The notes under the pieces: generated by a model
Told to the model about the DNA's origin: nothing
The model's input: the letters and a program-made list of their open reading frames with translations, nothing else
Database searches by the model: none
In this document: positions 3,558 to 21,710 of the stretch, in pieces
Numbering within the stretch: position 1 is the stretch's first letter
Layout: the number at the start of each line of letters is the position of its first letter
Origin: a virus
DNA length: 21,710 nt
IMG/VR virus record: IMGVR_UViG_3300047497_000219
Location: 1-21,710 of that record
Reading direction: 5' to 3' (one strand)
Position numbers and translations under genes: made by a program

Positions 3558-3625
3558 GGTGTTTTCATCACCGGCCTGCGGGATATAGCCGTGACTGTTC
3601 AGAACTGAGCTGCCCGCATCGGGAC

Positions 3626-5568: not shown

Positions 5569-5578
5569 TGCGTCTCCT

Positions 5579-6994: not shown

Positions 6995-7015
6995 GTCATC
7001 CTCTCACAATGTGGG

Positions 7016-7044
7016 AAAAATCAGCGCCGGCTGTCCGCCAGCGC
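7016..7044 (-). terminator. Putative rho-independent terminator, minus strand
   Basis: On the minus strand GCGCTGGC and GCCGGCGC pair (8 bp, one G-U) around a GGACA loop, followed by TGATTTTT. The stem covers the last codons of the 159-residue gene and its TGA stop lies between stem and T-run. It would separate tail-side transcription from the lysis genes. Confidence 0.55.
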
Positions 7045-7500: not shown

Positions 7501-7547
7501 GGCCGGACTAAAGCCAATTGTCTCCGGTCTCGCAATCCCCGGCCGGC

Positions 7548-8183
7548 CTACTTGAACAGGCCGATAACGTCATTGCCGATGGTCGCACCATCGGGCAGAT
7601 ACTTTCCCGCCAGATAACCCGCTCCCGCTGCGCCCAGCGGACCCAACTCGCCGCCCACCACCCCCGCACCGAAGATCGCCGCCGTCCGCAGGGAATTGCC
7701 CAGGATGGCAGCCCCCGGCGACGCGCCATGGTTGATGTCGCTGACTGTATCGGCCACGCCGGAGCCAATGGTCAGCGGCGCCGTGATGGCGGTCGTGACG
7801 CCTTTCAGCCCTTTCAGAACCGAGTCGCCTTTCGCCACAATCTGCCCTATCTGTCCGATGGCGCCATGCGTCCCGTCCACCATTGTTCCGGCCGCTCCAA
7901 GCGCCGTGCTGATCCCCCTGGCCCGGTCTGGCGCCAAGGGGACGCCATCTCCACCGAAAGACAGCAACCCGGCGTTCGCGCCACCGCTTTGCACCGTCCA
8001 TGGCACGGCCTGACTCTGCGCACGCAGGGGCAAGTCACCGCCGGAAAAATCTACCCCGCCCATGATCGACGGCGCCTGCAACGCAGGATCGTCCGGGTTG
8101 ATGGTGATAACTGGCAAACAATCAGGAGGCTGGACAGCCGGGGCGATGTCGCCCGGAGCCAACATGGTTTGAGGATCGCTCAT
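7548..8183 (-). CDS. Gly/Ala-rich phage protein, possible ejected or cargo protein
   Basis: 211 residues starting MSDPQTMLAPGDIAP, 6 bases after the preceding stop. Residues 1-75 are Pro/Asp-rich, with APSIMGGVDFSGGD (about 37-50) that weakly recalls the ST-x-GG...DWG motif of the M23 and SleB-like proteins. Residues 105-205 form an extended Gly/Ala-rich hydrophobic region (IFGAGVVGGELGPLGAAGAG) with glycine-zipper character, able to insert into membrane. The family is not recognised. Candidates are an ejection protein forming a channel, or the carrier part of a toxin. The first is the safer reading given the preceding gene. Confidence 0.5.
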   Translation of the reverse strand: MSDPQTMLAPGDIAPAVQPPDCLPVITINPDDPALQAPSIMGGVDFSGGDLPLRAQSQAVPWTVQSGGANAGLLSFGGDGVPLAPDRARGISTALGAAGTMVDGTHGAIGQIGQIVAKGDSVLKGLKGVTTAITAPLTIGSGVADTVSDINHGASPGAAILGNSLRTAAIFGAGVVGGELGPLGAAGAGYLAGKYLPDGATIGNDVIGLFK

Positions 8184-8189
8184 TTCACA

Positions 8190-9257
8190 CTAGGATCGCG
8201 ACGGCAACTGCGCGGCAGGTCCGAGAATGCTACCGCCGACTGTATTCAATCCCAGACCAGCTACACCCAGAACGTCACCGAAGATGCTGCCGAAGCCGAG
8301 ATTGTTATGGGTGTTTGTCGTGGTTGTCTGCGAAACAGGAATCTCCGTCAGCGCCTGGTTGCGCAACTGCTGCTGTTCGATGGGGAATTGCGCCTGGCGC
8401 AGGAATTCCTGATAGGCGGCTTGATCGATGGCCTGTTGCTGTGCGGTCTGTTGCGCGCCCACGCCCTCAATCGCACCCGCGCGCTGCAAGGCCTGGTTCA
8501 GCTGGTCGTTCGACAGGCTGCTCAACAGGTTTGCGGCATTCATCTGCAAGCCAGCGCCGGCCAGATTGTTGGCGGCATTGGCGGCGGCGGCGTTATAGGC
8601 GCCGGTGGAATTGAACTCCGAGGCGTTCAGCTGATTGCCGGCATTGGCCTGACTGGCCGCGAGCCGGTTGTTGATGTCGGCCAGCGCCGCCTGCTGCGCA
8701 TTGGCATAGGCGCCCTGATTCAGATTGGCGGTGGTTGATGCGACGTTGCGCAGATAGTCATTGGTGGTCAGGGCGTTCTGCACCGCCTGGCGCGTGCCGC
8801 CAAAGGCGTTGGCCGCCGTCGCCGCCGCATCATCCGACACCTGTTGCCGGGCGCGTGCCTGCGCCAGATCGTCCAACGTGCTGCTGATCACCTCGTTGGT
8901 ATAGGGATTGAGATAGGGCGTGAGGTCGGTGCTGGAAAGCTGCCCCGCCGCGATCGTGCTGGGCGTCACCGTGGCCGGCGCGGACAAGGTCGGCGCCTGA
9001 TAGCCCAGCAGGCTGTTTGTGCTGGTCAGCGCGTTGTTCAGCGTGTTGGCCGCGGTGGGATCACTGGCGGCGCTGAGAACAGCCTGCTGGCCTTGGGCTT
9101 GCAGCGGCGAGAATGGCGCCACCAGTTCACCGGTATAGGGCTGAAACGCCGCGGCGTTGCCCGCCACCGCATTGGCGTTGGCATAATTCTGCATGTACAG
9201 GGACAGCAGCTGCGGGTCCACATTCGTGCTGCTTTGCGTCGAGCTTCCACCACCCAT
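8190..9257 (-). CDS. Virion ejection-type protein, Ala/Asn/Gln-rich
   Basis: 355 residues starting MGGGSSTQSSTNVDPQLLSL; the ATG overlaps the upstream stop (TGATG) and AAAGAGGTG lies before it. The N-terminus (GGGSS, then YTGELVAPFSPLQAQGQQAV) is typical of a family of phage virion proteins with MGGSS-type leads and a P(Y/F)(T/S)G..VAPFSP motif. The middle is a long helical, Ala/Asn/Gln-rich region (about 140-300) with AFGGTRQAVQNALTTNDYLR. The C-terminus is Gly/Leu-rich (GSIFGDVLGVAGLGLNTVGG), probably membrane-seeking. The likely role is an internal protein ejected with DNA to help cross the envelope, by position after the tail genes and by composition. Confidence 0.6.
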   Translation of the reverse strand: MGGGSSTQSSTNVDPQLLSLYMQNYANANAVAGNAAAFQPYTGELVAPFSPLQAQGQQAVLSAASDPTAANTLNNALTSTNSLLGYQAPTLSAPATVTPSTIAAGQLSSTDLTPYLNPYTNEVISSTLDDLAQARARQQVSDDAAATAANAFGGTRQAVQNALTTNDYLRNVASTTANLNQGAYANAQQAALADINNRLAASQANAGNQLNASEFNSTGAYNAAAANAANNLAGAGLQMNAANLLSSLSNDQLNQALQRAGAIEGVGAQQTAQQQAIDQAAYQEFLRQAQFPIEQQQLRNQALTEIPVSQTTTTNTHNNLGFGSIFGDVLGVAGLGLNTVGGSILGPAAQLPSRS

Positions 9258-9643
9258 CAGTCTTTCACCTCTTTGATCATCACCAGCCACTGCAATGCAT
9301 AACCCATCGCCTCGGTCACCGGCCTCCAGCTTTCATGGATGCCGAAACCCATCACATATTTGCAGTCCGACGCCCGCGCCCAGGCCAGAAGGCAGGGCTC
9401 CAGCTCCCGCGTCAGGGCCTTGAGGGCCAGGCCTCTCTCGCCACCCGCCGCCAGCACATTGAGAACCTTGCAGCCGGGATAAGTCGCGAATTCCGTCACT
9501 GCCGCGCAGTGTTCACCCGACCAGAACTGCATGCTGCCACCGGCAACGCCGCGCTCGATATCCCCAATCGTATAGAGATGCGCCGGCAGTGCCGCCGCGA
9601 TCCAGTCGCGGCAGCGGGCCCACTCGCCCTGAAGCGGCGTCAT
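9257..9643 (-). CDS. Conserved phage protein, GNAT-like
   Basis: 128 residues. MTPLQGEWARCRDWIAAAL, then TIGDIERGVAGGSMQFW, SGEHCAAVTEFATYPGCKVL, and a C-terminal ARASDCKYVMGFGIHESW look like a known class of small phage proteins related to GNAT acetyltransferases and encoded beside tail genes. I see no clear acetyl-CoA binding P-loop, so catalysis is uncertain. It overlaps both neighbours by a few bases (ATGA upstream, TGATG downstream), so it is translationally coupled within the tail cluster. Confidence 0.6.
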   Translation of the reverse strand: MTPLQGEWARCRDWIAAALPAHLYTIGDIERGVAGGSMQFWSGEHCAAVTEFATYPGCKVLNVLAAGGERGLALKALTRELEPCLLAWARASDCKYVMGFGIHESWRPVTEAMGYALQWLVMIKEVKD

Positions 9644-9828
9644 GTGATGACGACGGCGCCGTGCGCCACGCTCAAGCTCACCACAGCGCCCGTCGCGGTG
9701 TCGCGCAGCAGAATTTTGTCCAGCACTTGGCCGGTCTTGAGATTGCGCTTATCTTCGGTTTCCAGGATGCGGCGCATCTGCGACTGATCGGTTGCGTCAT
9801 ACTGCGCCGGCGCCTTGGGCAGGTTCAT
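9640..9828 (-). CDS. Small phage protein of the tail cluster
   Basis: 62 residues, MNLPKAPAQYDATDQSQMRR then ILETEDKRNLKTGQVLDKIL and a beta-like end. It overlaps both flanking genes by 4 bases (ATGA). Small proteins with the YDATDQSQMRR-type lead are common next to tail genes in proteobacterial phages; the function is unknown. No signal peptide or membrane segment. Confidence 0.65.
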   Translation of the reverse strand: MNLPKAPAQYDATDQSQMRRILETEDKRNLKTGQVLDKILLRDTATGAVVSLSVAHGAVVIT

Positions 9829-11297
9829 CGTCCCTCCCCCGGCACGACTTCCAGCCGCGGGCTTCCGAAGCGCCAGTTGGTGTTGCGCGCGCCCGTGATG
9901 GTCAGCTCCACCAGCCCGCCGGAAAAACGCAAGTCCGTCTTGCTGGCCAGCGCAAAGGGTCCAAAGACCTGGCCCGCATCGTCGGGATTGCGCCGCACGG
10001 TGAAGGAGGCAGTGACATCGCCCACCGTCGCATCATCGGGATAAAGTCCCAGCACGTGCATGATCTGGTCGCCATTGCCCAGCTCGATCGGACCGGTGGT
10101 GGCGTAAGGCGCGGCGCCGCCATAATCCCAGCCCACTTCATGATCCCAGACCGCGCCGCTGGCATCGACCAGGATCGGATACTGGAATACGCCCGCATCG
10201 ACGCCGCAGGTGCGCGCGGCGCGGCCGATGGTCCAATAATCGTCCTTGTATTGCCACACCACACAGCGGTCGATCTCGGTCGATGACGCCGAGCAGTAAC
10301 GCCATTCGATCTCGAAACTGCCCGAATTGGCCGTCGCCACGATCTTGGACATTTGCAGCCAGTTGATGTCCTGGCGAATGTAATCCATCACCGGACAATC
10401 CAGCGGCACCACCCCGCCGCCATTCCACAGCCAGAAGCCCGAAGGACTCATCCAGGCAGCCTGCTGGTCGAACGCAGCCACCGCCTGGCGCGAAATCGCG
10501 CCGCAGGCATCGCCCACGCGGTCGAAACCATAGACAAATGTGCCGCCTATATAGGTGGCGAGATGAACGTCCAGATCTGTGAGCAGCAACGTGCCGCCCT
10601 TGACCCGGCAGCCGCAAAGCAGCCGGCCCTTGGTCTGGAGCGGGAAGCTGCCGGCCTGGTTGGTCGAAGCCGGCGCCCACAGGGTATTGTTTTCCTGGTC
10701 GCACCAGGAAACAGTGCGCGGATCGGAAGTCGCCAGCGCGAAGACAAAGCGCTCGGCGGTAGTGACCACCGCGGCGCAGCCCGGCGCATTGACGACATGG
10801 GCCGCGGGCGCGGCGGTATTCAGCGTCCATTGATAAAGCTTGCCGTCATCGGGACTGACGCCCAGCAGGTCTTCGCCCCATGTGTCCAAGGTCCACTGGG
10901 TGGCGTCGGCGACCAAGCTGGTATCGGGGCGCGGCGCGCCATAGGCGCCCGAGCCATAGGTCGAACCGCCATAGCCGCCCGCGCCGGCGGCATCGGCCTG
11001 ACCGACGGCAAAACCGGCTGGCGTGATGTCGTAAAGCGTGCTGCCGCGATCCATCACATAGAGGTGCGAATGCGTGCCGATGGCAAGCCAGGTCTGGCCG
11101 TTGTTGGCGTTCCAGGCCAGCGCCGCCCGGGCAAAACCGGTCACCACGAAGCTGCCACGCCGGCGCCAGCCATTGACCGGCCCGAGCGCGGCACCGTACC
11201 AGCGCGTCAGCGACGCATCGTAATAGCGGCGTTTGGACTGATATTGCGTACCATCCCGATAAATGCCGAGTGGCAATGTAATCAGAAGGCGTGTCAT
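9825..11297 (-). CDS. Tail accessory / packaged-DNA stabilisation-like protein (P22 gp10-like)
   Basis: 490 residues starting MTRLLITLPLGIYRDGTQYQ; GGAGTG nine or so bases before the ATG fixes the start. The body is rich in Trp/Gly beta-blades (NNGQTWLAIGTHSHLYVMD, WTLDTWGEDLLGVSPDDGKL, WMSPSGFWLWNGG, VVWQYKDDYWTIGRAART), as in a beta-propeller. Length and position after adaptor and tail genes resemble P22 gp10 (472 residues), the tail accessory factor that helps close the portal after packaging; the phage tubular-protein group is the alternative. The family match is inferred from shape and position, with no motif specific to gp10 that I can cite. Confidence 0.7.
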   Translation of the reverse strand: MTRLLITLPLGIYRDGTQYQSKRRYYDASLTRWYGAALGPVNGWRRRGSFVVTGFARAALAWNANNGQTWLAIGTHSHLYVMDRGSTLYDITPAGFAVGQADAAGAGGYGGSTYGSGAYGAPRPDTSLVADATQWTLDTWGEDLLGVSPDDGKLYQWTLNTAAPAAHVVNAPGCAAVVTTAERFVFALATSDPRTVSWCDQENNTLWAPASTNQAGSFPLQTKGRLLCGCRVKGGTLLLTDLDVHLATYIGGTFVYGFDRVGDACGAISRQAVAAFDQQAAWMSPSGFWLWNGGGVVPLDCPVMDYIRQDINWLQMSKIVATANSGSFEIEWRYCSASSTEIDRCVVWQYKDDYWTIGRAARTCGVDAGVFQYPILVDASGAVWDHEVGWDYGGAAPYATTGPIELGNGDQIMHVLGLYPDDATVGDVTASFTVRRNPDDAGQVFGPFALASKTDLRFSGGLVELTITGARNTNWRFGSPRLEVVPGEGR

Positions 11298-11369
11298 CAG
11301 GTTCACTCCGGTAGGAACGAAAGGGGGGCCCAAGGCAAGCGATGCCTGGTACTGAATTCTGGAAGACGA

Positions 11370-12182
11370 TTAAGCCGCTGCGAAAACCGCAATCTTGCCC
11401 GTCTGTGCGCTAGTGTTTGTTTTCAACTGGAAGTAAAGTTGTCCACTTGAAACAAAACACGCCACGCCATTGCCATCATTCGAAGCTGTGTTATTGGTCG
11501 TATCGAAGCAATTGTTGTTGCCGAGAGAGTTTGAGCTTCCAATAACGATCAGAACGCCATTAGATGCCACCGTGAACAGTGCCCAGCCATCGCTACCGTT
11601 CCAGGTGACGAAGACCAAACCACCACCGAACGCAGAAACGACGTCGATAGCGTTATTGGACGATGTTGCATTCACTGTATATCCGGGCCTTACGATGCTG
11701 TGCCCGGCAGACAGCGTTCCTGCGATAGATGCATTGCCAGACACAGTTACGGAGCCAAACTTTGCGCTCGCTCCCGATGAAACATCCTGGTCATGATACG
11801 CCAGCTCCCGCCAATTGCCGGAACTGTCTGATCTGTAGACACCCACGCCCCCTGCCGCCGTGGTCCGGCTCGCCCCGCCCAAAAGGATCAGACTGGTGGC
11901 GTTGTGGGTCAGGGTCAGCGCCGCCGTAAACCGCACGAACCGGATACAATTGGCCACGGTGCCAAAACTGGTGATAGTGGTCGCGCCCGAAATCGCCACC
12001 GCGGTCGACGCCGCGTTGCCGATGTCTGTGGTCGCCGCGGATGCCAAACTCACCTCGGCACCCGGCATCAGCTTGCCGGCAAAGGCGTCGATCAGCCCCA
12101 GATCGGTGTTGAGGTCATTGCCCCAATTGTCGGTATCGGCACCGACAGTGGGAATGGTCATTCCAAGATTGGTTGTGGTCAT
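11370..12182 (-). CDS. Tail fibre / receptor-binding-like protein
   Basis: 270 residues starting MTTTNLGMTIPTVGADTDNW; the longer frame upstream lies over another gene and is ignored. The N-terminus (TIPTVGADTDNWGNDLNTDL) is the common attachment lead of phage tail fibres and distal tail proteins. The middle is beta-rich (AISGATTITSFGTVANCIRF, GNASIAGTLSAGHSIV) with trimer-like repeats; the C-terminus is Ser/Asn/Thr-rich. Base composition changes within the gene: 36/60 GC at 11881-11940 against 28/60 at 11461-11520. This suggests that the C-terminal receptor-binding half was exchanged. Confidence 0.7.
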   Translation of the reverse strand: MTTTNLGMTIPTVGADTDNWGNDLNTDLGLIDAFAGKLMPGAEVSLASAATTDIGNAASTAVAISGATTITSFGTVANCIRFVRFTAALTLTHNATSLILLGGASRTTAAGGVGVYRSDSSGNWRELAYHDQDVSSGASAKFGSVTVSGNASIAGTLSAGHSIVRPGYTVNATSSNNAIDVVSAFGGGLVFVTWNGSDGWALFTVASNGVLIVIGSSNSLGNNNCFDTTNNTASNDGNGVACFVSSGQLYFQLKTNTSAQTGKIAVFAAA

Positions 12183-12192
12183 CGCTCGCTCT

Positions 12193-12693
12193 CTATTGAA
12201 GGGTCCAACTGGTCTGATCGGAAGATGCCGGCACCCAGGGGTCGCCGCCCTCGTCCACGGGGTTCCAGCCGCTTGCCTGCGCGCCTGCCGGCACCCAGAC
12301 ATTGCCCGACAAAAGCCCCGCCCCCGGGCCGGCCAGAGCGACCGCGCTCGCCGTGGCCGTTACAGCCCATTGCGCGGCCAGCGACAGGCTTTCTCCAGCC
12401 AGGGCAAACAGGCCAGGGTCCGCGGCCGCCAGCGCGGCCCACGCAAGCCCTGCCTGCCGGCCGGCCAACGCAAAGGTCCCTGCAGCTGCCGCGCCCGCAA
12501 ATCCGGCCCATAAGCCGCTGGCAAGCCCCGTCAGGCCAAACCCGCCGAAGGACAGCCCGGCCTTTGCCTGCCAGCTCAACCCTGACGTCTGCCCCGTCTC
12601 GGAATAGGCGCACGCTGCCACCGTCAACACGCTGCTCGTGGCCGTGGAGTAATTTCCCTCGCCCCAGGCGCCGGTCCCGTAATTGGCAGCCAT
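12193..12693 (-). CDS. Ala/Gly-rich tail-cluster protein
   Basis: 166 residues starting MAANYGTGAWGEGNYSTATS; the ATG overlaps the stop of the previous gene (TGATG), which decides against a longer frame. The N-terminal YGTGAWGEGNYST motif is common in short phage virion proteins. The rest is a low-complexity Ala/Gly/Trp/Leu pattern (GLASGLWAGFAGAAAAG, AGLAWAALAAADPGLFALAG). The C-terminus ends GWNPVDEGGDPWVPASSDQT. Probably a tail or decoration protein; unknown function. Confidence 0.6.
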   Translation of the reverse strand: MAANYGTGAWGEGNYSTATSSVLTVAACAYSETGQTSGLSWQAKAGLSFGGFGLTGLASGLWAGFAGAAAAGTFALAGRQAGLAWAALAAADPGLFALAGESLSLAAQWAVTATASAVALAGPGAGLLSGNVWVPAGAQASGWNPVDEGGDPWVPASSDQTSWTLQ

Positions 12694-13112
12694 CAGCTCA
12701 ACTGCAGAATGCCGTTGGTCAGGTCCAGCCCGACGGTGAAGGTATCGGCCGACGCCAGCGTGATCGAGGTACCGCGATCCCACCAACCGATCAGGTTGCC
12801 GCCGGCGGCCGTTGAATTGTACAGCACGGCATAGCGGAACGGTCCCACCGTGCCCGTTGCCGTCAGCACCGGATCGGCGCCGGGCAACAGCTTGTAGGTC
12901 CCACCCGACTGGCTCGACGACGCAATCGCCACCGTCAATCCGCCCGTGGCATAGCCGCTGCCGGCGGCGATCTCGCTGACATCGGTCTTGACCAGGTTGG
13001 AGGCAGCCGGCGCGGTGTTGGTCAGCATCACCTTCAGCGTATCGGCGCCCAGATTGTGCACCTTGTTGGCCAGGTCGGCGACAAAGCAGTTGAATTTGGA
13101 AAAGCTCGCCAT
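12693..13112 (-). CDS. Conserved phage tail-cluster protein
   Basis: 139 residues, MASFSKFNCFVADLANKVHN, GADTLKVMLTNTAPAASNLV, then a beta-rich core ending DTFTVGLDLTNGILQLS. The lead pattern (M-A-x-F-x-K-F-N-x-F-x-x-D-L-A-x-K-V-H-N-L) is one I know from alphaproteobacterial phage virion proteins of unknown exact role (tail or decoration). GAGG seven bases before the ATG; 9-base gap after the adaptor gene. Confidence 0.65.
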   Translation of the reverse strand: MASFSKFNCFVADLANKVHNLGADTLKVMLTNTAPAASNLVKTDVSEIAAGSGYATGGLTVAIASSSQSGGTYKLLPGADPVLTATGTVGPFRYAVLYNSTAAGGNLIGWWDRGTSITLASADTFTVGLDLTNGILQLS

Positions 13113-13121
13113 CGGAAAACC

Positions 13122-13817
13122 TCAGCTGTCGGAAGTGATGTCATAGGCACCGAACCGTCCCCATCGCATCAGCGACGGAAACGCCGTGCGCAGCAGCGAC
13201 CGGTCGGTCGGCACGGGATCGGCATTGCACATATCGTCCAGCGCCGCGGTGAACAGCGTCCCCCACAGCTCGGCGCGGGCATCGTCGCGCAGATAGGGCG
13301 CCGACTGCACCAGCGCGCCATAGAGATAGGCGTCGGGATAATCTTCCAGGATCCAGTTGGCCGGCGCCGCGTCGCTCAAAGCCGGCGTGCGCGCGATATA
13401 GACCAGCTCGGCCGCGTAATCCTGAGCGGCCGCCGGATACAGCTGCAACTGCCCGCCCAGCACGGTATAGAACTTCGGCGCCCCCACCCAACGCGACAGC
13501 GCCTTCTCCCGCTCCAGATTGGCTGGGTCCAGATAATCCAGTTCGACCGGCGGCGCCGCCTCAAGCATCAGGTCCAACGGCCCCAGCATGTCGCTGGGCA
13601 CGGCCACATATTCGGCGCCTGGCGCAATCTCCGCATCCGCTCTCTGAATCAGCCGTCGCGGCACCGCCATGCCCTGATTGGCGCGCGACACAAGCCGCCG
13701 CGCCATCTGCGCTTCGGCCAGGGTAATGAAATCGGGAATGGCCGAAGCCAGATCGCCGCGATTGAGAAAATCGGCGATACTGGCCTTCAGGCCGTCATAG
13801 CTGCCATCAAGCGCCAT
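13122..13817 (-). CDS. Head-to-tail adaptor protein
   Basis: 231 residues starting MALDGSYDGLKASIADFLNR with AAGGAG six bases upstream. A much longer open frame upstream only shadows the coat gene. Features typical of phage adaptor proteins: LASAIPDFITLAEAQMARRL near the start, VPSDMLGPLDL in the middle, and a helical end with ILEDYPDAYLYGALVQSAPY and LWGTLFTAALDDM. Its place directly after the coat gene also fits. It bridges the portal ring and tail. Confidence 0.8.
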   Translation of the reverse strand: MALDGSYDGLKASIADFLNRGDLASAIPDFITLAEAQMARRLVSRANQGMAVPRRLIQRADAEIAPGAEYVAVPSDMLGPLDLMLEAAPPVELDYLDPANLEREKALSRWVGAPKFYTVLGGQLQLYPAAAQDYAAELVYIARTPALSDAAPANWILEDYPDAYLYGALVQSAPYLRDDARAELWGTLFTAALDDMCNADPVPTDRSLLRTAFPSLMRWGRFGAYDITSDS

Positions 13818-13882: not shown

Positions 13883-15073
13883 CTAGTTGTTGGCCAGCCG
13901 ACACGCCAGCTGCGGCCGGATGGTCTTGTAGCCATAGAGAACATCGATGCGGCAGGGGAACTTGTCGTTCACGATGTCGTACTGGCGCACGATGCGCATC
14001 GACACGCCATCCAGCACTTCGCGCGCCGCGAAATCCACGCCCTTGGGCATGATCAGGTCGGCGGTGGCGAAGGCAAAGGCGTTCTTCTGATAGGCCAGCG
14101 AAATGCCATAGGCTTGCGAGGCCGTGCCCACCTTGGTCACCGCGCCCGTGTTGGTGGGCGAGGCCGACACATTCTGGCCCGCGCCCGTGGTCACGATCGC
14201 CGGGCTGATCGGAATGACCGTGCCGCTGGTCGCGACCGGCGCCGTCACCGTGAACTGCTGCAGCTGGCTCGATACCGCCTTGGTCTCCGGATGCACGCTG
14301 TAACAGCCGGCAAAGGTGACGATATCGCCCACCGTCAGCGTCTTGGCCGAGCCATTGCTCACCGTCACGCTGGAGCCGGTCTGGTTCGCGCCATTGACCG
14401 CAAAGGTCGGCGACGAACCATTCTCGGTGCCCGACAGATGCGTCGGCCACAGCGTGTTCTCCAGAAAGTCGAACCCCGCGGTGCGGCCCATATAGCCTTC
14501 GCGATACTGCCTGGCGATATTGGTCGAATCCTGGAACAGGCCCTTCAGCGCATCCACCAGATCGACATTGTCCTGGGTGCACAGATTACAGGTCCGGTCG
14601 TTGACCGGCGCCAGGCTGTCCACCAGACGCTTTCGCGCCAGAAGCACATTGTGGAAAGTGATGGCCGAGCCCTGATTGTTGATCTGCTGATAAACGTCAT
14701 TGACCATATTCATGGCGTCGGCCTCGATATTGGCCGCCAGCACCGCCATGGCCGGCTCGATGATGCGATCGGAAAAGTCATCCAGGCTCAGAGTCAGGTC
14801 GTTGGAGGTGAAATTCACGTCCACACCCTTCTGGGTGGAGACCTGCAGCTGCACGCTGGTCTCGGTCGTGTCCTGGGTCGAAAGCGTCGGACCGGTGCGC
14901 ACCGTGTACTGGTTGGGCACCCGGATGTTGAGTGTGTTGCCGATCCGGGCGCCGTCCTTGGCGAAGCTGTCGTCATAGCCACGATTGATGGTGCCGACGA
15001 AGTTCAGCTTCTGGTGCAGCACCATCAGCGCCTTGCGCGTCACCTGGGTAGGCGTAAGAAGTGTGTTCGACAT
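13883..15073 (-). CDS. Major capsid (coat) protein, P22 gp5-like
   Basis: 396 residues with GAAGGA before the ATG. MSNTLLTPTQVTRKALMVLH, then INRGYDDSFAKDGARIGNTL and IRVPNQYTVRTG, is the typical start of the P22 coat family (HK97 fold). TSNDLTLSLDDFSDRIIEPA and GFDFLENTLWPTHLSG also fit. The central Ser/Thr/Val-rich part (about 220-320) would be the insertion-domain region. The C-terminus (DKFPCRIDVLYGYKTIRP) is family-typical. It is slightly shorter than P22 gp5 (430). The scaffold gene precedes it and a strong terminator follows. Confidence 0.9.
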   Translation of the reverse strand: MSNTLLTPTQVTRKALMVLHQKLNFVGTINRGYDDSFAKDGARIGNTLNIRVPNQYTVRTGPTLSTQDTTETSVQLQVSTQKGVDVNFTSNDLTLSLDDFSDRIIEPAMAVLAANIEADAMNMVNDVYQQINNQGSAITFHNVLLARKRLVDSLAPVNDRTCNLCTQDNVDLVDALKGLFQDSTNIARQYREGYMGRTAGFDFLENTLWPTHLSGTENGSSPTFAVNGANQTGSSVTVSNGSAKTLTVGDIVTFAGCYSVHPETKAVSSQLQQFTVTAPVATSGTVIPISPAIVTTGAGQNVSASPTNTGAVTKVGTASQAYGISLAYQKNAFAFATADLIMPKGVDFAAREVLDGVSMRIVRQYDIVNDKFPCRIDVLYGYKTIRPQLACRLANN

Positions 15074-15097: not shown

Positions 15098-15931
15098 TTA
15101 ACGCCGACGCATCCGCTCGCGCTCGCGCTTGGCCCATTCCTCGGTGCTTAGCGTGTCGCCGCTGGCGTCGGTGGTGCGGCGCGATACCGTTCCCCCGCCG
15201 CCGCCGACACGCGTCACCGGCCGGGCGGCTTGCGTGGCGTCGAACGTCTGCTTTGTCTTTTTCTGTTTCTCGGCTTCGTCGAGCTGATGCGCCTTGTGCA
15301 GCACCAGCACGAAGTTGGGGTTCTGGAGTGCCGCGCTGGTGATCTCGTTCTGCGAGAGCCCCTGTGCGGTGCCATAACGCGCCAGCTTCGCATCCAGGCC
15401 GGGCGACCAGTCCGCGATAAGCCGTGACAGATGCGCATGCACCTCGCCCGCGCGCCTGGCGGTCGCCCGCTGCGTTTGGGTGGCGTTGTCCCGGTCCTTT
15501 CGGGTCCAGGCGCGGGCCGCGCGGTCCCGCAAATGCCTCATCTGAATGCGCTGCTGCCACAATTGCGCAGCCCGCGCCGGGTCCTGCGCCTGAAGCGCCG
15601 GCCAATCCACTTTGTCCAGTTGCGCCAGATGATCGTGCAACGCCACGATCCTGGCCGCATCCTGCAGGTGCTTGCGCATCACCGCGGCTTCCTGGCGATG
15701 GCCGGCGCGCTCGGCTTCGAGGGCGCGGCGCTGGCCGGCCAGCTCCTGGGTCTTCCTCGTATAATCGGCCTGGCGCAACAGCGCGTCGCGCAGCTCCGGC
15801 GGCAGCGAATAACTCTTGCCGTTATACTGAACCTCGACTTCATCCGGCATTTCGCGGCCGTCATCGGTCTGGTCATCCGCCAATTGGGAATCGTTCGCGG
15901 CCGCACCAGCGGCCCCGTTCTCGATGGTCAT
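15098..15931 (-). CDS. Scaffolding protein
   Basis: 277 residues starting MTIENGAAGAAANDSQLADD with AAGGA seven bases upstream. The layout is typical of phage scaffolds: an acidic, disordered N-terminus (DDQTDDGREMPDEVEV), YNGKSYSLPPELRDALLRQA, a long charged helical region (RRALEAERAGHRQEAAVMRK) and a basic C-terminus (AKRERERMRRR) that would bind coat protein. Only 24 bases separate it from the coat start. It directs procapsid assembly and is not in the mature virion. Confidence 0.85.
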   Translation of the reverse strand: MTIENGAAGAAANDSQLADDQTDDGREMPDEVEVQYNGKSYSLPPELRDALLRQADYTRKTQELAGQRRALEAERAGHRQEAAVMRKHLQDAARIVALHDHLAQLDKVDWPALQAQDPARAAQLWQQRIQMRHLRDRAARAWTRKDRDNATQTQRATARRAGEVHAHLSRLIADWSPGLDAKLARYGTAQGLSQNEITSAALQNPNFVLVLHKAHQLDEAEKQKKTKQTFDATQAARPVTRVGGGGGTVSRRTTDASGDTLSTEEWAKRERERMRRR

Positions 15932-16059: not shown

Positions 16060-16506
16060 TCAGCAGCCGCCCGGTGTACCACGGCGAAAGACAAGAACAT
16101 CTTCCGGCCGGTCTCGTTCCTGCAACACAATGGTCTCCACGGTGCAAAGGCCCCAATGATACTTGCGGTAGCTGCCATACATCGGGCGCGGATCCTCATT
16201 CAGCAGGATTCCTCCAAGGACGGCATCAATTCTGTTCTGCGCACTGATCTTGCCGGTCAAGACTGGAGGGGGAGATGCTTTTGGAATTTCCTCCATCTGC
16301 GCTTCGATCTTCGAATTACGAAATTCCAGCGTGGCGCTGCCCCAAAATACATCCGGAGCCGAGAACACGCCTACACTGGCGAATACACCATAATACCATT
16401 TCCACTTTCCGGGCGGCACGCCCGGCTGTATGGACCCTTGGGCTTGCGCCGGCTCACAAACAGACAGCAGCGCCAGCGCCGCCAAGCATACCCGCAAGCT
16501 CCGCAT
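16060..16506 (-). CDS. Small secreted protein, candidate immunity factor for the M23 peptidase
   Basis: 148 residues with a clear signal peptide (MRSLRVCLAALALLSVCEPA, then QAQG) and a good ribosome site (AGGGGGAACG before ATG). The mature part includes WKWYYGVFASVGVFSAPDVF, SATLEFRNSKIEAQMEEI and a Cys-containing end (YHWGLCTVETIVLQERDRPE). Not recognised. It is unusual to find an exported protein between portal and scaffold genes. It begins 13 bases after the M23 peptidase stop and has lower GC (about 50-55 percent in lines I counted) than the scaffold next door (43/60 at 15481-15540). The periplasmic immunity role is inferred from this pairing. Confidence 0.6.
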   Translation of the reverse strand: MRSLRVCLAALALLSVCEPAQAQGSIQPGVPPGKWKWYYGVFASVGVFSAPDVFWGSATLEFRNSKIEAQMEEIPKASPPPVLTGKISAQNRIDAVLGGILLNEDPRPMYGSYRKYHWGLCTVETIVLQERDRPEDVLVFRRGTPGGC

Positions 16507-16519
16507 CGTTCCCCCTTGA

Positions 16520-17500
16520 TCAATTCCCCTGGTGCCGGCTCAAATCCACGCCAGGATGAAATTCCGTCTTGCCCTGAAACGTGCGCTTCAGAAACGGACT
16601 GCGTACCCCGCCGCCTGGCATCACGATCCCGGCATACGGCGTGGGATCGATCACCGCGCCCAGCGCCCGCGAATTGTGAATATAGGGAGCATACTGCTGC
16701 TGCAGCGGTTGTGAAGGGTCTCGCTCTTCCAGATGGGTATGCGGGCCGTCCGAACGCCCGTTGGTCGGATCGGCATAGTCTCCCAGCGCCTGGCCCGGCT
16801 GAACCCGGTCGCCCGGCTGCACCTGGGCCGAGCCCGGATCGGCATGGCCATAGATGAACAGATGGCCGTTATCGCCCTGAACCTGGATGCGGTAGCCATA
16901 GCCCTGTTTGTGGTTCTGCGGATTTTCCCATCCCGCCGCCTTCACGATACCACCCGTCGCGGAATAGAACCGATGATCGGGGACCGCACTGGCCACGGCA
17001 ATCGGCGCTGTCGGCATCGTATTAACCGGCGATGTGCCTGCTCCGTCATCGCCTTGGCCGCCCGGTGCAGGAGCATTGCCTGCCACCTGGACCCGCGCAT
17101 CCGTATCCGTCTGGTCGTCCGTCGGAGAGCCAGCCGGCGCGCTGCCCGGTGGCACAAGCCCCGGGGCCTGTCCACTCACCGTCCAAGCCGGTGCGTCATT
17201 GCTGGAATCTGTACCAGTCCCAGCCGAGGGTGCCACATCCCCCGAATCCTGACCGCTGCCCAGCGGCACGGGCCCGGAATCGGGGTCGCCCCATTTCTTT
17301 AAAAGCGTATGGAACGCCGGTCCCGGATCGGGCGGCCCCTCCGCCCCCCAATCCACGTCCGCCATCTGCTCCGGCGTCATCACCCCGCCAAGCGTGCTTT
17401 GCGCCGCCGCGGCATTGATGTCCGGCACCGCCGCCATGATCCCGCCCGGATGCCAGCCATCCGGCACGCCCGAACCATCCTGATCCAAAACATCCGCCAT
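16520..17500 (-). CDS. M23 (LytM) peptidase with apparently permuted domain and N-terminal tag
   Basis: 326 residues; AAGGCGAAG before the ATG. Residues 33-55 (QSTLGGVMTPEQMADVDWGA) resemble the N-terminal motif of the SleB-like protein at the other end of the element. Residues 56-165 are a Pro/Gly/Ser/Asp linker. Residues 178-290 hold the M23 strands YSATGGIVKAAGW, GHLFIYGHAD (His219) and GRSDGPHTHLEE (His254, His256). The HxxxD metal motif that should precede these comes last: SPFLKRTFQGKTEFHPGVDL (301-320, His315/Asp319), seven residues before the end. This looks like a circular permutation that still supplies all ligands. M23 enzymes cut peptidoglycan cross-bridges. Ends in SRHQGN, so a truncated GH25 start is an alternative reading. 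Confidence 0.8.
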   Translation of the reverse strand: MADVLDQDGSGVPDGWHPGGIMAAVPDINAAAAQSTLGGVMTPEQMADVDWGAEGPPDPGPAFHTLLKKWGDPDSGPVPLGSGQDSGDVAPSAGTGTDSSNDAPAWTVSGQAPGLVPPGSAPAGSPTDDQTDTDARVQVAGNAPAPGGQGDDGAGTSPVNTMPTAPIAVASAVPDHRFYSATGGIVKAAGWENPQNHKQGYGYRIQVQGDNGHLFIYGHADPGSAQVQPGDRVQPGQALGDYADPTNGRSDGPHTHLEERDPSQPLQQQYAPYIHNSRALGAVIDPTPYAGIVMPGGGVRSPFLKRTFQGKTEFHPGVDLSRHQGN

Positions 17501-17538: not shown

Positions 17539-18120
17539 ATGCAATCCTCGCCCCAGCTCCCGCCCACCATCACCTTTGTGCCCTGGGCCAATGCCTTCAC
17601 GGCCGAGCAGATGGACGGCATCGAACGCCTGGGCGACGCCCTGCCGCTCACCCAAGCCGGCCTGATGACCGACATCGACGCCGGCGCCCGCGACCGCGTC
17701 CGCGTCACCCGCACCGCCTGGATCGACGCCACCCCGGAAAACAAATGGATCTACGACCGCGTTCAGCAGATCGCCATGATGATCAACGCCATGTCCTACC
17801 GTTTCGAGCTGACCGGCTTTTCCGAACGCATCCAGTATTCGGTCTATCACGGCAGCGAAGGCGGCCATTATGACTGGCATGTGGACCAGGGCCCGCTGGT
17901 CACCCGCAGGAAGCTCTCGCTCACCCTCCAGCTCACCGACCCGTCACATTATCACGGCGGCGAGCTTCAGTTCCTCGCGGGCCACCAGACCGAAACCGCG
18001 CCGCGCGAGCGCGGCATGCTGGTGGCTTTCCCCTCTTACGGGGTGCACCGCGTCGCGCCGGTCACCTCCGGCACCCGCAAATCCCTGGTGATCTGGGTCA
18101 CCGGCCCGCAATTGCGCTGA
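17539..18120 (+). CDS. 2-oxoglutarate/Fe(II) oxygenase, PiuC/PKHD-like
   Basis: 193 residues. YSVYHGSEGGHYDWHVDQGP gives the iron ligands His114 and Asp116; FPSYGVHRVAPVTSGTRKSL supplies His170 and the 2-oxoglutarate-binding Arg180. KLSLTLQLTDPSHYHGGELQ is the typical PKHD-type strand. These enzymes hydroxylate protein or small-molecule targets; relatives are frequent in phages and bacteria. It is on the plus strand, divergent from the M23 gene and opposite to the whole phage cluster, so probably an independently expressed extra gene. No ribosome site precedes the ATG. TTGTGA...TTATCG just upstream could be a weak promoter giving a leaderless transcript. Confidence 0.85.
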   Translation: MQSSPQLPPTITFVPWANAFTAEQMDGIERLGDALPLTQAGLMTDIDAGARDRVRVTRTAWIDATPENKWIYDRVQQIAMMINAMSYRFELTGFSERIQYSVYHGSEGGHYDWHVDQGPLVTRRKLSLTLQLTDPSHYHGGELQFLAGHQTETAPRERGMLVAFPSYGVHRVAPVTSGTRKSLVIWVTGPQLR

Positions 18121-18172: not shown

Positions 18173-18376
18173 ATGCGCGCGCTTCTCATCCCGGCCCTGC
18201 TCCTTGTGGCCCAGCCCGCCTGGCCGCAAACTTTGGCGCCGGGCAAGCCCGCGGGCACAAAGGCCGCCCAGCATGTTTCCTATCGCGCCGGCTTCATCGC
18301 CGTATCGATCATCGCCGTGGCGCTGACCTTCGCCCTGCCCGGCTCAACCACCAGCACCACTGCGACCACCGGTTAA
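18173..18376 (+). CDS. Small membrane protein with signal peptide
   Basis: 67 residues: signal-peptide-like lead MRALLIPALLLVAQPAWPQ, a short linker (APGKPAGTKAAQHVSYR), one transmembrane segment (AGFIAVSIIAVALTFALPG) and a Ser/Thr tail. Similar tiny proteins are common in alphaproteobacterial genomes. It overlaps the end of the oppositely oriented portal gene by 33 bases. No strong ribosome site. Function unknown; it may be co-transcribed with the oxygenase. Confidence 0.5.
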   Translation: MRALLIPALLLVAQPAWPQTLAPGKPAGTKAAQHVSYRAGFIAVSIIAVALTFALPGSTTSTTATTG

Positions 18377-20341
18377 CCCCGCGTCATTCACCGCCTTCAG
18401 CCTTTCGGTCTGGGCCTTGAAGGCATCGATCCCCAGCTTCTGGCTTTCGATTGCCCGGTCGCTCTGCAGCGCCGCCACCTGCGCCGCCAGCGCCGCATTC
18501 TGCTGCTTCAGCCCGGCGATCATCGTCACCACCTGCGCTGCCGCGGCCTGCACCTGGGGATGCACCGGCCCGCTCGCGCCCGCCGCCACCGGCGCACCCG
18601 CTTGCGCGATCTGCGGCGGCAGCAACGCCTTCAACCGCCGCGCCACTTCATCGGCTTCCGGCCAGTCCAGATTCTTGGCCAGCAGATCGCCCAGGATCGG
18701 CGCCGCCGCCGGATAGGCGCCGATCAGCTCCAGCATCTGGCTGGCCGCTTCCTCGCGCCGCGTCGCAAAGCTCGGTCCCGTCTCCACCGTCAGGTCGTAT
18801 CGCCCGCGCCCCAGATCGCACAGCCGCGTCATCGGCAGTTTCGTCGCCAGATCGACCTGCGGCCTGCCGTCCGCGCCCGTCACCGCCAGCGGCTGGCCCA
18901 ACGCCACCGTCCTGGCGCTGTTGTCGGCGCCCAGCACCCTTATCATCCGCTGACCGGAATAAACCGTGGGGATCAGGTCGATCAGAACGCGCCCGCCATG
19001 CTCGATGGCGCGGGCAAGATTGTCGATGAAATGAAAGTTCGACGTATCGCCTTGGGCTTGCCGCGCCTGGATCGCCACGCCCGAAATCTCGTTGCCCGCG
19101 GCACCCAGGCTGGCATCATAAAGACCCAGTATCGCCTTCATGTCCTCGCTGGCGTTCAGCGCCTCTTGAATGGCCCCGATCGCCGCCCCGCTGTCCAAGG
19201 GCTGGCGCGCCGGCGGAATCTCGCCGTCATATTCGATAAAGGCATGGTTCTGGCTGTTCACACTCGCCCATTTGCGCGCATCCGACTTGAAGCTGCCCTT
19301 CTTGCCGATGAACGGCACGCGCGGCGACAGCGCCGTCAGCTCGGTCGAGGCCGTGCGCCAGTAATTCAGCATCCGCTGGGCGTCCTTGGCGTCGCGGATC
19401 AGGCTCCTGAAATGCCGCTTGCCCTCCACATTCACTTCATCGCCATAGACCGGCACCACCGGAATATATTTCCCCGCCCAGTCGTTCTTCTCCAGCACTT
19501 CCGCGCCGGTCAGAACCGTCTGCGTCACCTTGTGCCCACCCACCAGCCGCTCGCCCAACACCGCGATGCCTTGGGCGTCCAGCACATCCTTCTGCTTCCG
19601 GTAAACATCGGCCTCGACGACCGAGCCATCCGACAGCGCCAGGATGGCGCGCTTGACCCGCTCCCTGCGCCACCATTCCGCCACCAGCACGCTATGCTCG
19701 CCCGTCTCCCCTGATGTCCACGGCGCCGGCAGCTTCTGATAACCGTCATCGCTCCAGCTGACCGGATCGGCGCCTTTATACTTGGCGCGGAAGGCATCGC
19801 GCGAAAGCACCTCGGTGACAAAACACTGGTTCCAGTCGCTGGAGTCACTCGCCGTGCTCAGCGGATCGGCATAGACGCTGAACGGATTGGCAATCCGCTC
19901 GATCCGCAGCTCCAGGTCGAAACTGTCGTCATCGGCATAGTCGCTGGTGATGCGGAAATAGCCGAAACCATTGCTGACCGCGCAATCCACCGCCGTGTCA
20001 TAGGCGACATCGGCTTTGGAAGTCTGCTCGATATTGCGGATCAGGCCGTTATAGATTTCGGCGATGGATACATCCGCTTCACTGTCCACCGGATGCACCT
20101 TGATCCCGGGCCGGTTCGCCCGCGCCGCATTCACCACCTGGCGAATGAAGGCCGGCTGCCGGTTGATGGTCAGGCACGGCCGCCCGTCGCGGATGCGGCC
20201 CTGCCGCACGCTCTCCGGCCACTGCTCGCCCAGCTTGGCGAACCGCAGGTCATCCAGCGCCGCGATGCGGTTCTCGGCTTCCGCCTCTTCGCAGAGCGCA
20301 AACGCCGCCTTGGCATCGGAAAGCAGTTGATCGTCTGTCAT
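18344..20341 (-). CDS. Portal protein, P22-like
   Basis: 665 residues; AAGGTCACA before the ATG. The lead (AENRIAALDDLRFAKLGEQW, DGRPCLTINRQPAFIRQVVN, ARANRPGIKVHPVD) is that of P22-type portals. DCAVSNGFGYFRITSDYADD, the FSVYADPLSTASDSSDWNQC segment and the helical AGNEISGVAIQARQAQGDTS region also fit. The C-terminal 100 residues are Ala/Gln-rich coiled coil (the barrel region in P22), ending in a Gly-rich tail. P22 gp1 is 725 residues. It forms the dodecameric DNA gate. Unusually, no terminase gene precedes it: the next gene is divergent, 48 bases away. Confidence 0.9.
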   Translation of the reverse strand: MTDDQLLSDAKAAFALCEEAEAENRIAALDDLRFAKLGEQWPESVRQGRIRDGRPCLTINRQPAFIRQVVNAARANRPGIKVHPVDSEADVSIAEIYNGLIRNIEQTSKADVAYDTAVDCAVSNGFGYFRITSDYADDDSFDLELRIERIANPFSVYADPLSTASDSSDWNQCFVTEVLSRDAFRAKYKGADPVSWSDDGYQKLPAPWTSGETGEHSVLVAEWWRRERVKRAILALSDGSVVEADVYRKQKDVLDAQGIAVLGERLVGGHKVTQTVLTGAEVLEKNDWAGKYIPVVPVYGDEVNVEGKRHFRSLIRDAKDAQRMLNYWRTASTELTALSPRVPFIGKKGSFKSDARKWASVNSQNHAFIEYDGEIPPARQPLDSGAAIGAIQEALNASEDMKAILGLYDASLGAAGNEISGVAIQARQAQGDTSNFHFIDNLARAIEHGGRVLIDLIPTVYSGQRMIRVLGADNSARTVALGQPLAVTGADGRPQVDLATKLPMTRLCDLGRGRYDLTVETGPSFATRREEAASQMLELIGAYPAAAPILGDLLAKNLDWPEADEVARRLKALLPPQIAQAGAPVAAGASGPVHPQVQAAAAQVVTMIAGLKQQNAALAAQVAALQSDRAIESQKLGIDAFKAQTERLKAVNDAGLTGGRSGAGG

Positions 20342-20389
20342 TGTGACCTTGTCTTGGCCGCGCTAGCTTCGCGGCTTGGGGAGGCTGGA

Positions 20390-20914
20390 ATGCGGCAATG
20401 GAATCGGACCTGGTGGACGACCGTCATGGGAACGGCTGTTCTGCTCGCGTCGGCCGGCACTGCCTGTGCCCAGGCGCAAGACAAGGAACCCGCCGCCATC
20501 GTCGAAGCCGGCGGCGCCGGCCAATGGGGCGTGCACGGCGGCTCGGCCTATGGCCCGTCCATCGCCGTCGAAACCACACCCATCCCCGATCTGCTGGAAA
20601 TCGAAGGCGGCACCACCGCCCTGTACAGCAAGGGCCAGACCGAATGGGATACCGATTTCCTGTTCAAGAAGCCCTTCACCCTATCCGACACGGTGGAGTT
20701 CATGTTCGGCCTGGGCCCGCAATGGGCGCATGTCACCACCCACGGCCGCTCCAGCGACACCGTCGCCGGAGAAGCCGCGCTGGATTTCATGTTCTGGCCC
20801 TGGCGGACCAGAAAGCTCGGCTTCTATCTCGAGCCCAGCTACGACTACACCTTCGCCCACGGCCACGAGCAATCCTTGGGCGTCAGCGGCGGATTGCTGA
20901 TTCCGTTTCCGTGA
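20390..20914 (+). CDS. Outer-membrane beta-barrel-like protein
   Basis: 174 residues starting MRQWNRTWWTTVMGTAVLLA with GGAGG just upstream; a longer open frame overlaps the portal gene and is not used. Signal peptide to about residue 27 (ASAGTACAQAQ). The mature part alternates polar and apolar strands (QWGVHGGSAYGPSIAVETTP, LFKKPFTLSDTVEFMFGLGP, AALDFMFWPWRTRKLGFYLE) and ends HEQSLGVSGGLLIPFP, a pattern I know from alphaproteobacterial hypothetical outer-membrane proteins. Likely a host gene flanking the phage block, or a lysogenic extra gene. Confidence 0.7.
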   Translation: MRQWNRTWWTTVMGTAVLLASAGTACAQAQDKEPAAIVEAGGAGQWGVHGGSAYGPSIAVETTPIPDLLEIEGGTTALYSKGQTEWDTDFLFKKPFTLSDTVEFMFGLGPQWAHVTTHGRSSDTVAGEAALDFMFWPWRTRKLGFYLEPSYDYTFAHGHEQSLGVSGGLLIPFP

Positions 20915-21049
20915 AGGCGGGGGGATTCGGCGTCCTCGCGCGCCTATTGTCATGTATGAATCCGAGAGTGGGCCAACGCGGTCAAACGATTTCGACCAGC
21001 AAAGCGGCCAGTGGCGGGCTACGACATGCTTACAAACTAAGATATCCTG

Positions 21050-21559
21050 CTATGCAGCAAGTCGTTCCACGCTGCGCTTGAATTTAATCCACTCGCGTGT
21101 CTTTTGTTCGTAACCGCGCTTGCGGATTTGAAGAATATACAAGTGCTTTGATTCAATGTGGACACCACCTAAATCTTTACCCATTGAATCGGCCGTTATC
21201 GTTTGCACTTCTCGTACATGAGTGGGGTCAGTCACGGTGAGTATCTTGTCACCGCGCTGAAATGCGTCCAGCTGCCTCAATTCAGGGGCGAAGATTGTTT
21301 TGTCGCCAAATATGCGAACAACAAAGGGAGATATTTCTTTCGGAGTGGCTCCCATATTGTACGCCCTAAAAAGCAACTTATTGAGTGCGAGCGGCCCTCC
21401 AACTTCAATAATGGAAGTCAACATCACCAGATGCCACTCTTTAGTAACTACGTCGGTACCCCACCCGAGCAGCTCAGGATAGAGACCCAAAGAATTTAGA
21501 GCGGTGAGATATTCCTCGCCTGCCTCTAAATATTTAGGCGGTAACGCTTCGACAGCCAT
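21050..21559 (-). CDS. Unrecognised protein in an AT-richer segment
   Basis: 169 residues, MAVEALPPKYLEAGEEYLTA onward; no signal peptide or membrane helix. Mixed helical N-terminus (LLGWGTDVVTKEWHLVMLTS) and a beta/basic C-terminus (LYILQIRKRGYEQKTREWIK). The sequence does not resemble a phage structural gene, and GC is visibly lower than to the left. It overlaps the preceding minus-strand gene by 34 bases, so the two are probably an operon. Both the lower GC and the position suggest acquired accessory DNA. Confidence 0.6.
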   Translation of the reverse strand: MAVEALPPKYLEAGEEYLTALNSLGLYPELLGWGTDVVTKEWHLVMLTSIIEVGGPLALNKLLFRAYNMGATPKEISPFVVRIFGDKTIFAPELRQLDAFQRGDKILTVTDPTHVREVQTITADSMGKDLGGVHIESKHLYILQIRKRGYEQKTREWIKFKRSVERLAA

Positions 21560-21710
21560 TCTACTACTCCGTCCGAGCCGAACGCGGCTTCGTACATTTG
21601 TTCAGAAAATTTGAGGGACAATTTGTTAGACGCGTACCCATGTCCTCGGTGCCACTCGAAGGTCATTTTCCAGGCCGCAGCGGCCGCGTCTGTCGGGTCG
21701 AAACTTTTAG
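21526..21710 (-). CDS. Partial unrecognised gene at the right window edge
   Basis: Sixty codons are visible before a TAG; the start lies beyond the window. The visible end reads KSFDPTDAAAAWKMTFEWHR, then ASNKLSLKFSEQMYEAAFGS and VVEWLSKRYRLNI. A frame without stops that runs into the next gene start suggests a real gene. No family is recognised. Confidence 0.5.
   Translation of the reverse strand, partial: KSFDPTDAAAAAWKMTFEWHRGHGYASNKLSLKFSEQMYEAAFGSDGVVEWLSKRYRLNI

Follow-up and report, generated by a model that had tools for sequence, protein, structure and literature searches.

A P22-like particle locus carrying putative toxin-immunity cassettes at a seemingly fixed chromosomal site

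Genes of the window and the slot beside the portal

We analysed a viral DNA record, IMGVR_UViG_3300047497_000219 of IMG/VR, over its entire linear length of 21,710 bases (hereafter the window). It carries the portal, coat and scaffold genes of a P22-like podovirus particle, with candidate toxin-immunity cassettes lying among them and host DNA at its left edge; terminase genes are seen in its relatives only. Our best reading is that the window is the end of a P22-like particle locus of about 23 kb that adjoins a tandem array of host genes, with TerS and TerL at the other end in relatives. The features of the window are listed below by position and strand.

1-1455, plus: host chromosomal DNA flanking the element, with a partial and a full copy of a tandem exported-protein gene family; matches the array in G181, L258 and G497
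1642-2163, minus: exported protein (signal peptide judged from sequence), the last element gene before host DNA; orphan immunity gene or cargo; no homologue in the loci searched and no Pfam match
2564-3211, minus: candidate exported immunity protein of the Hydrolase_2 effector, overlapping the 3' end of the effector gene; N-terminal hydrophobicity 1.62, below the cut of 2.0; no Pfam match
3144-3605, minus: effector C-terminus, SleB-like cell-wall hydrolase (PF07486, E=4.1e-10)
3644-4051, minus: reading frame with the N-terminal motif, in a different frame from the hydrolase; like arrangement in L077
4190-4531, minus: SprT-like gene (PF10263, E=9.6e-8), the conserved last core gene; also in L077, L078, L173, L257 and L258
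4541-5017, minus: membrane protein by hydropathy, candidate immunity protein of 5020-5568, its start overlapping the effector stop; no Pfam match
5020-5568, minus: candidate effector, assigned solely from its position and its paired gene; 5020-5451 gave no Pfam or NCBIfam match
5582-6566, minus: lysis genes in the order holin-like, Rz-like spanin, holin-like (phrog_4952 / Rz-like spanin; the holin labels are our interpretation); the same order was read in L077, L078, L173, L257 and L258
6566-6994, minus: endolysin, a phage lysozyme (PF00959, E=1e-44)
7024-7500, minus: membrane protein, candidate immunity protein of 7551-8183; hydropathy 1.97, just below the 2.0 cut
7551-8183, minus: candidate effector with N-terminal motif 2 and a Gly/Ala-rich hydrophobic C-terminus; motif shared with L077 7601-8326 and 9072-9953; no Pfam or PHROG match
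8193-9257, minus: retained virion protein of a DNA-ejection-protein-like family, assigned via homologues; no PHROG match itself, but homologues match phrog_4287 'DNA ejection protein' (L079, 1.4e-23; L258, 1.2e-5; L173, 5e-4)
9260-13112, minus: neck and tail genes g128, g62, g502 (= phrog_3287), g270, g166 and g139
13125-13817, minus: gp4-like head protein (phrog_2941, E=2.4e-38)
13886-15073, minus: major coat protein (PF11651, E=8.8e-38; phrog_283, E=1.8e-76)
15101-15931, minus: scaffolding protein (phrog_3927, E=3.9e-27)
16063-16506, minus: exported candidate immunity protein of the M23 effector (signal peptide judged from sequence; hydropathy 2.77)
16523-17500, minus: effector with N-terminal motif 1, linker and M23 peptidase (PF01551, E=9.2e-11)
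17539-18120, plus: reverse-strand cargo, 2OG-Fe(II) oxygenase (PF13640, E=5.5e-15); 81% identical in L002
18173-18373, plus: small conserved exported protein of 67 residues, also present in L002 and L003; convergent with the portal end
18347-20341, minus: portal (P22_portal, PF16510, E=2.8e-182)
20390-20911, plus: reverse-strand exported protein of 174 residues, cargo of the TerL-portal slot; partial homologue only, in G045
21050-21559, minus: cargo in the TerL-portal slot, of lower GC content (0.555 for 20501-21500); no Pfam match and no homologue in the loci searched
21526-21708, minus: cargo reading frame running off the contig end; no Pfam match

A preliminary description of the window had suggested a domesticated particle locus, or a mosaic prophage with its terminase elsewhere, on the ground that no terminase precedes the portal and that an outer-membrane barrel gene diverges from it 48 bp away. 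The spacing is as described, with 48 bp between the portal start codon (20341, minus strand) and the start of the divergent reading frame (20390, plus strand). The barrel identity could not be confirmed: the encoded protein has no Pfam match above cut-off, and its best match below it is EccD (E=0.032). The terminase is indeed missing from the record, which has no match to phrog_2 (TerL), but the explanation lies in the contig end, only 1,369 bp beyond the portal start. The structural and lysis genes were also said to look intact, and coat, scaffold, gp4-like, virion protein, lysozyme and spanin genes are all open and score well.

Portal scans gave 63 loci from viral contigs and 12 from named genomes. 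A phrog_2 search finds TerL in 31 of 36 portal-bearing records, and tblastn places it upstream of the portal in 55 of 77 portal-bearing loci, a count that includes the window and some duplicates. Among the remaining 22, 13 begin inside the portal or within 150 bp of it, and two (L012 and L028) matched phrog_2 in the profile search. For the nearest clade, defined by portal identity of 77-90%, TerL is present in all eight loci with upstream sequence, although only its 3' part is seen in L004 and L008; L013, whose portal start is cut off, was left out of this count. The TerL-portal gaps in these eight loci are 1464, 1153, 621, 621, 2400, 1156, 2009 and 1792 bp, four of them longer than the stretch available in the window, and the gene content of the gap varies in all eight. 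Many distant relatives have TerL directly adjoining the portal. In the clade, a variable cargo slot of 0.6-2.4 kb thus separates the two genes, and the window ends inside the slot. The terminase of the window is probably just off the contig end, and its absence from the record fails as an argument for domestication.

The divergent gene at 20390-20911 is part of the slot cargo. Reverse-strand cargo recurs in these loci (17539-18120 and 18173-18373 in the window, a response regulator in L173, and 4674-6149 in L006), so this gene needs no special explanation. Its partial homologue (46% over 46 residues and 37% over 78 residues) occurs in one of 385 genomes of the class searched, and none was found in any other fetched locus. 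Elsewhere, the slot of L010 (2036-3106) carries one gene with an HTH_17 and one with a PIN domain, which probably form an ordinary toxin-antitoxin pair, and that of L002 (2115-2981) a proteasome-subunit-like gene (PF00227).

Candidate toxin-immunity cassettes

The putative effectors combine shared N-termini with exchanged C-termini. Searched against 234 loci, a profile of N-terminal motif 1 matches 12 genes, all of them in the window or in six clade records; motif 2 marks genes in the interval between tail and lysis genes. By Pfam, the effector C-termini comprise M23 (two unlike forms), Pesticin, Hydrolase_2, Phage_lysozyme, M74 and M15. Residues 8-163 of the M23 effector of the window are 69% identical to the product of L003 4717-5766, whose C-terminus is a Pesticin domain (PF16754, E=5.4e-37), and the same N-terminus is common to two L002 proteins with other C-termini. 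One effector family has no Pfam match. Its structure model is of low confidence (predicted local distance difference test, pLDDT, 45), and its top 13 Foldseek hits, at E 0.013-0.38, are all either a Ralstonia chitinase or g-type lysozymes, enzymes that we take to be of the GH23 family. No Foldseek hit reached E<=0.001, no phage match was obtained and sequence matches in the PDB were weak; a GH23-like fold is proposed with low confidence. Another family has an invariant HEEQH motif; its structure model (mean pLDDT 38.5) was not used. The HEEQH effector had matches in two of the 385 class genomes, one of them an isolated fragment, and no plasmid match. Altogether 27 effector-like genes were counted. 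Pfam, fold or homology assigns a wall-cutting domain to 14 of them, including one below cut-off and one cut by a contig end.

Each recurrent effector type is followed by its own type of partner gene. The HEEQH effector is paired with an FNN lipoprotein in 5/5 cases, the GH23-like effector with a GIW-type protein in 4/4, and the type 3 and M15 effectors with their partners in 2/2 each, 13 of 13 in all; two genes cut at contig ends, L004 8076 (GH23) and L005 4531 (type 3), were excluded from these counts. Dealing the 13 partners at random would match all of them about twice in a million, by a hand calculation; being related, the loci do not provide independent events. The partner genes mostly encode exported products, with signal peptides, lipoboxes or membrane segments. 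An N-terminal hydrophobic segment scoring above 2.0 is found in 13 of 19 paired genes and in 13 of 106 other genes of seven loci (p=9e-7). This control excludes three genes presumed to encode second or orphan immunity proteins (L173 577, L173 2083 and window 1642-2163); with these counted, it becomes 16/109 (p=3.7e-6). Hydropathy guided the choice of start codons in the pairs as in the control, from ranges that are similar but not identical.

The M15 pair occupies the post-lysis slot in L257 and the TerL-portal slot in L007, and L258 carries a fused remnant; cassettes therefore move between slots and decay. Partner-like genes without a toxin occur at L024 3613 and L007 7477. A conserved N-terminus joined to a variable C-terminal domain, with a candidate cognate immunity gene directly downstream, is the layout of polymorphic toxins, and the locus thus seems to carry polymorphic-toxin cassettes in which putative toxins have type-matched, likely protective partners.

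In both the window (3144-4051) and L077 (13265-14103), the N-terminal motif and the Hydrolase_2 domain lie in different reading frames, with an identical relative frame. Conserved split genes, a programmed frameshift or two independent breaks would each give this arrangement.

We also considered the N-terminal motif as a host secretion signal and rejected the idea: a profile of 11 N-termini matched one of the 385 class genomes (E<=0.01), by chance as judged from gene context. In the host family the profile matched 8 of 96 genomes at E<=0.05. The match in G497 is real by context; around the other seven, the sequence fetched contained neither element nor flank genes.

Chromosomal site, clade and gene content

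The left edge of the window is host DNA. The gene family at 1-1455 is present as four tandem copies adjoining metG in G181, a metagenome-assembled genome of the Caulobacteraceae and the only one of the 385 class genomes to contain the family (DNA 81% identical over 342 b). Nothing matching the host gene was found in five genomes behind named loci. L258, found by a g502 protein scan, has the SprT-like gene, then 72 bp, then the 3' end of the array, oriented as in the window; a scan with the array gene itself confirmed this one record only. At the other end, L006 has a porin gene (PF07396) whose end is about 0.1 kb from the TerS reading frame that follows. In G497, a cellular genome from the family to which G181 belongs, metG is followed by three copies of the array gene, a truncated TerL, TerS, a GIW-type immunity gene, a GH23 effector, the porin and chrA; its porin and TerL are 71% and 84% identical in protein to those of L006. 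The flanks of the window, L258, L006 and G497 therefore point to one chromosomal place, and the element seems to occupy a fixed site between a metG-linked tandem array and a porin gene in an alphaproteobacterial family, as assembled from four partial views. The preliminary description had named conserved position as a check on domestication; the same host flanks recur in independent records, and one cellular genome has a remnant at this place.

Element and flank have diverged to a similar extent. For L006 against G497, synonymous differences per site (pS) amount to 0.56 (porin) and 0.53 (TerL), and for the window against L258 to 0.57 (full array copy) and 0.54-0.72 (six element genes); the partial array copy, aligned over only 46 residues (pS 0.77), was given no weight. 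These values fit common descent of element and flank, but are near saturation.

Beside the host junction, window 1511-1636 (minus strand) holds a 41-codon remnant whose signal peptide resembles the one of 1642-2163; it looks like a paralogue cut short at the junction. A tRNA-Thr attachment site was considered and is unsupported: the match between the G181 tRNA and the window spans only 11 b (E 0.27), and neither the window nor L258 has a tRNA gene according to ARAGORN.

The portal tree unites the window with nine records (L002-L008, L010 and L013) in one group with support of 100/98. L009 (portal 69%) falls just outside and was left out of the clade, and L173, L174, L175, L257 and L258, which have no portal, were assigned to it by other genes and content. 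Gene trees are discordant, and parts have therefore been exchanged with phages.

No integrase (PF00589) is found in the window, as the preliminary description had noted, or in any of 11 clade records searched (L002-L008, L010, L013, L173 and L174), all of which are partial; L257, L258 and L175 lay outside this profile search. Ten L006 and L078 proteins compared with PHROGs gave no integration or replication family and one weak DNA-methyltransferase match. Repressor and replication genes were noted neither in the window, judged only from reading its gene list, nor in the clade, where they were sought only by reading gene lists and through those ten proteins.

Two or three long genes separate the ejection-type gene from the endolysin in L079, in phage CV-1-33 and in the doubtful record L223; the match to an ejection or injectosome family is clear for one CV-1-33 gene and weak or absent for the others. 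Eight distinct records contain both anchors, and the interval lacks long genes in all six that belong to the clade. It is closed in L173, L257 and L258 (tblastn gaps of 158, 116 and 92 b) and filled with toxin cassettes in the window, L077 and L078, and measures 3.0 kb in L079 and 4.4 kb in L223. The last record, from the same metagenome as L002, was used only for this comparison and was rejected as an integrase-bearing relative: within 5136-8197 single frames run from TerL into scaffold and from coat into g502, and we suspect that these two apparent phage-gene fusions reflect a chimeric assembly.

The structural genes are under purifying selection, which the preliminary description had also proposed to examine. 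Ratios of nonsynonymous to synonymous change (dN/dS), for the window against L002 or L003/L077, are 0.14-0.16 for the portal, 0.06-0.09 for the coat, 0.24 for the scaffold, 0.10 for g502, 0.14 for the tail and 0.25 for the lysozyme, an overall range of 0.06-0.25. TerL gives 0.14 (L002 against L003), and the 2OG cargo gene 0.33.

Readings of the locus

We favour, with a probability of roughly 0.55, a fixed-site, integrase-less, domesticated P22-like particle locus that arms its host. The domestication or killer-particle idea of the preliminary description is thereby partly upheld: its argument from the missing terminase falls, and independent evidence comes from the host flanks, the lack of integrase, selection and the cassettes. 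On induction, the late operon would make particles and effectors, and lysis of the induced cells would free wall-cutting effectors, in or with capsid particles. Neighbours without matching immunity genes would be damaged. Immunity would act in the envelope, as the signal peptides, lipoboxes and membrane segments suggest, and the locus would be retained because released effectors harm non-immune neighbours. The effectors may be loaded into the head by their N-terminal motifs or may simply be released at lysis.

A more specific form of this proposal, which we regard as possible but doubtful, is a capsid weapon. An inherited P22-like particle would have dropped its ejection proteins, the N-terminal motifs would load peptidoglycan-cutting effectors into the head, and the particle would deliver toxins and not a viral genome, with envelope immunity protecting kin. 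Phage tails have repeatedly become weapons, as in tailocins, extracellular contractile injection systems (eCIS) and the type VI secretion system, and phage heads have become gene transfer agents. A podovirus-type locus at a fixed site, without integrase and rich in toxin-immunity cassettes, would be a head-based counterpart to tail-derived weapons and a testable case of domestication that swaps viral parts for bacterial effectors. The cassettes also form a catalogue of wall-cutting enzymes with matched candidate inhibitors.

Several observations weigh against the favoured reading. We infer domestication from partial records, no single contig having both flanks and a complete element; the copy in G497 is a decayed remnant, and portal relatives occur in only 2 of 96 host-family genomes, at 62% and 37% identity. 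The synonymous divergence cited for common descent is close to saturation. In G181 the array adjoins tRNA-Thr and there is no element, so an old bacterial attachment site (attB) is conceivable. Mosaic trees speak against strictly vertical descent of every gene: L009, which has no cassettes and has TerL abutting the portal, falls inside the group in the g502 tree, where it is weakly placed, and the cassette-less phages L177, L178, L179 and L181 interleave in the coat tree. L179 also has no long ejection-position genes, and their loss is therefore not peculiar to the clade. Purifying selection could stem from an earlier phage phase. Several cassettes are broken (window 3144-4051, L007 and L258); variable cargo and broken cassettes fit an arms race and also a decaying prophage. 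Particle entry and killing by the effectors are themselves proposals.

The strongest alternative, although we consider it unlikely, is an ordinary temperate P22-like prophage at a fixed attB, its integrase and early genes uncaptured and its cassettes serving as lysogenic-conversion morons. Most records are fragments, the long records of more distant relatives (G021, G022, G430 and G431) do contain an integrase, and the tRNA-Thr beside the G181 array and the mosaic trees would suit such a prophage. Against this stands the want of an integrase in the 11 clade records searched, together with the host genes directly at the seen ends: the porin before TerS in L006, the same porin before toxin, immunity gene and TerS in G497, and host DNA 72 bp past the last core gene in L258. 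There is therefore no room for early genes at those ends.

It is less probable still that the locus is a decaying defective prophage that has lost its early region and no longer makes particles, and is kept since its toxin-immunity genes are useful or addictive. G497, which retains only a partial TerL, TerS, a GH23 effector and its immunity gene, looks like such a relic, as do the broken cassettes, whereas, between the window, L002 and L003, purifying selection acts on the portal, coat, scaffold, neck, lysis and TerL genes, all with open reading frames. A gene transfer agent, whose particles would mainly move host DNA while cell-wall enzymes aid entry or release, strikes us as improbable. It would account for the retained terminase, portal and capsid, the seemingly fixed locus and the failure to find an integrase; the long ejection-position genes are nevertheless missing in the six clade records (though also in L179), and type-matched immunity genes and exchanged C-termini fit competition better. 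That the locus truly has no terminase, as the empty record taken literally would imply, is dismissed, since its nearest relatives have TerL upstream of the portal and the record ends inside the cargo slot.

Among known systems, the locus shares with P22-like podovirus modules the gene order TerS-TerL-portal-scaffold-coat-gp4-neck-lysis. It differs from them in that the clade records searched lack an integrase, host genes immediately adjoin the two ends that were seen, toxin cassettes lie among the structural genes and long ejection-position genes are absent. Alphaproteobacterial gene transfer agents are, to our knowledge, siphovirus-like and have no polymorphic toxin array; in the sources consulted they resemble the present locus as chromosomal, integrase-less capsid clusters with a terminase. 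The eCIS and tailocins derive from tails and are not known to have a capsid, whereas here there are capsid and portal genes and no long tail. The likeness, in the portion of the literature consulted (PMC8213781), is that of a phage-derived particle locus with exchangeable toxins.

The MuF polymorphic toxins of temperate phages, as outlined in the consulted part of Jamet et al. 2017 (PMC5576092), have a conserved N-terminus, a variable C-terminus and a small downstream gene and are linked to head genes, a layout common to the cassettes described here. In that account MuF is a portal-associated head protein domain, with mostly nuclease toxins and mainly in Firmicutes. Here the N-terminal motif is short and unrelated, many effectors are peptidoglycan hydrolases, the partners are exported and there are several cassettes per locus; no MuF domain was among the Pfam matches of the effectors scanned. 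The telocins of Klebsiella telomere phages, in the excerpt consulted (PMC12042878), are a phage locus with one of several alternative bacteriocin-immunity pairs. Those phages are described there as replicating as linear extrachromosomal elements with one telocin locus, whereas several cassettes lie here inside a chromosomal structural cluster. Both systems, as far as these excerpts go, show that phages can carry toxin-immunity pairs. Literature searches at the level of titles and abstract openings returned no description of a podovirus-type toxin-cassette locus.

Two further slot contents were noted. In L024, a more distant relative, two adjacent genes between TerL and the portal (7189-8671) have the same N-terminus and differing C-termini; this N-terminus is unlike motif 1 and may mark a second cassette family. 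The portal-scaffold slot of L013 has a short gene (1560-2015) matching phrog_5880, a family also matched by a long ejection-position gene of L223.

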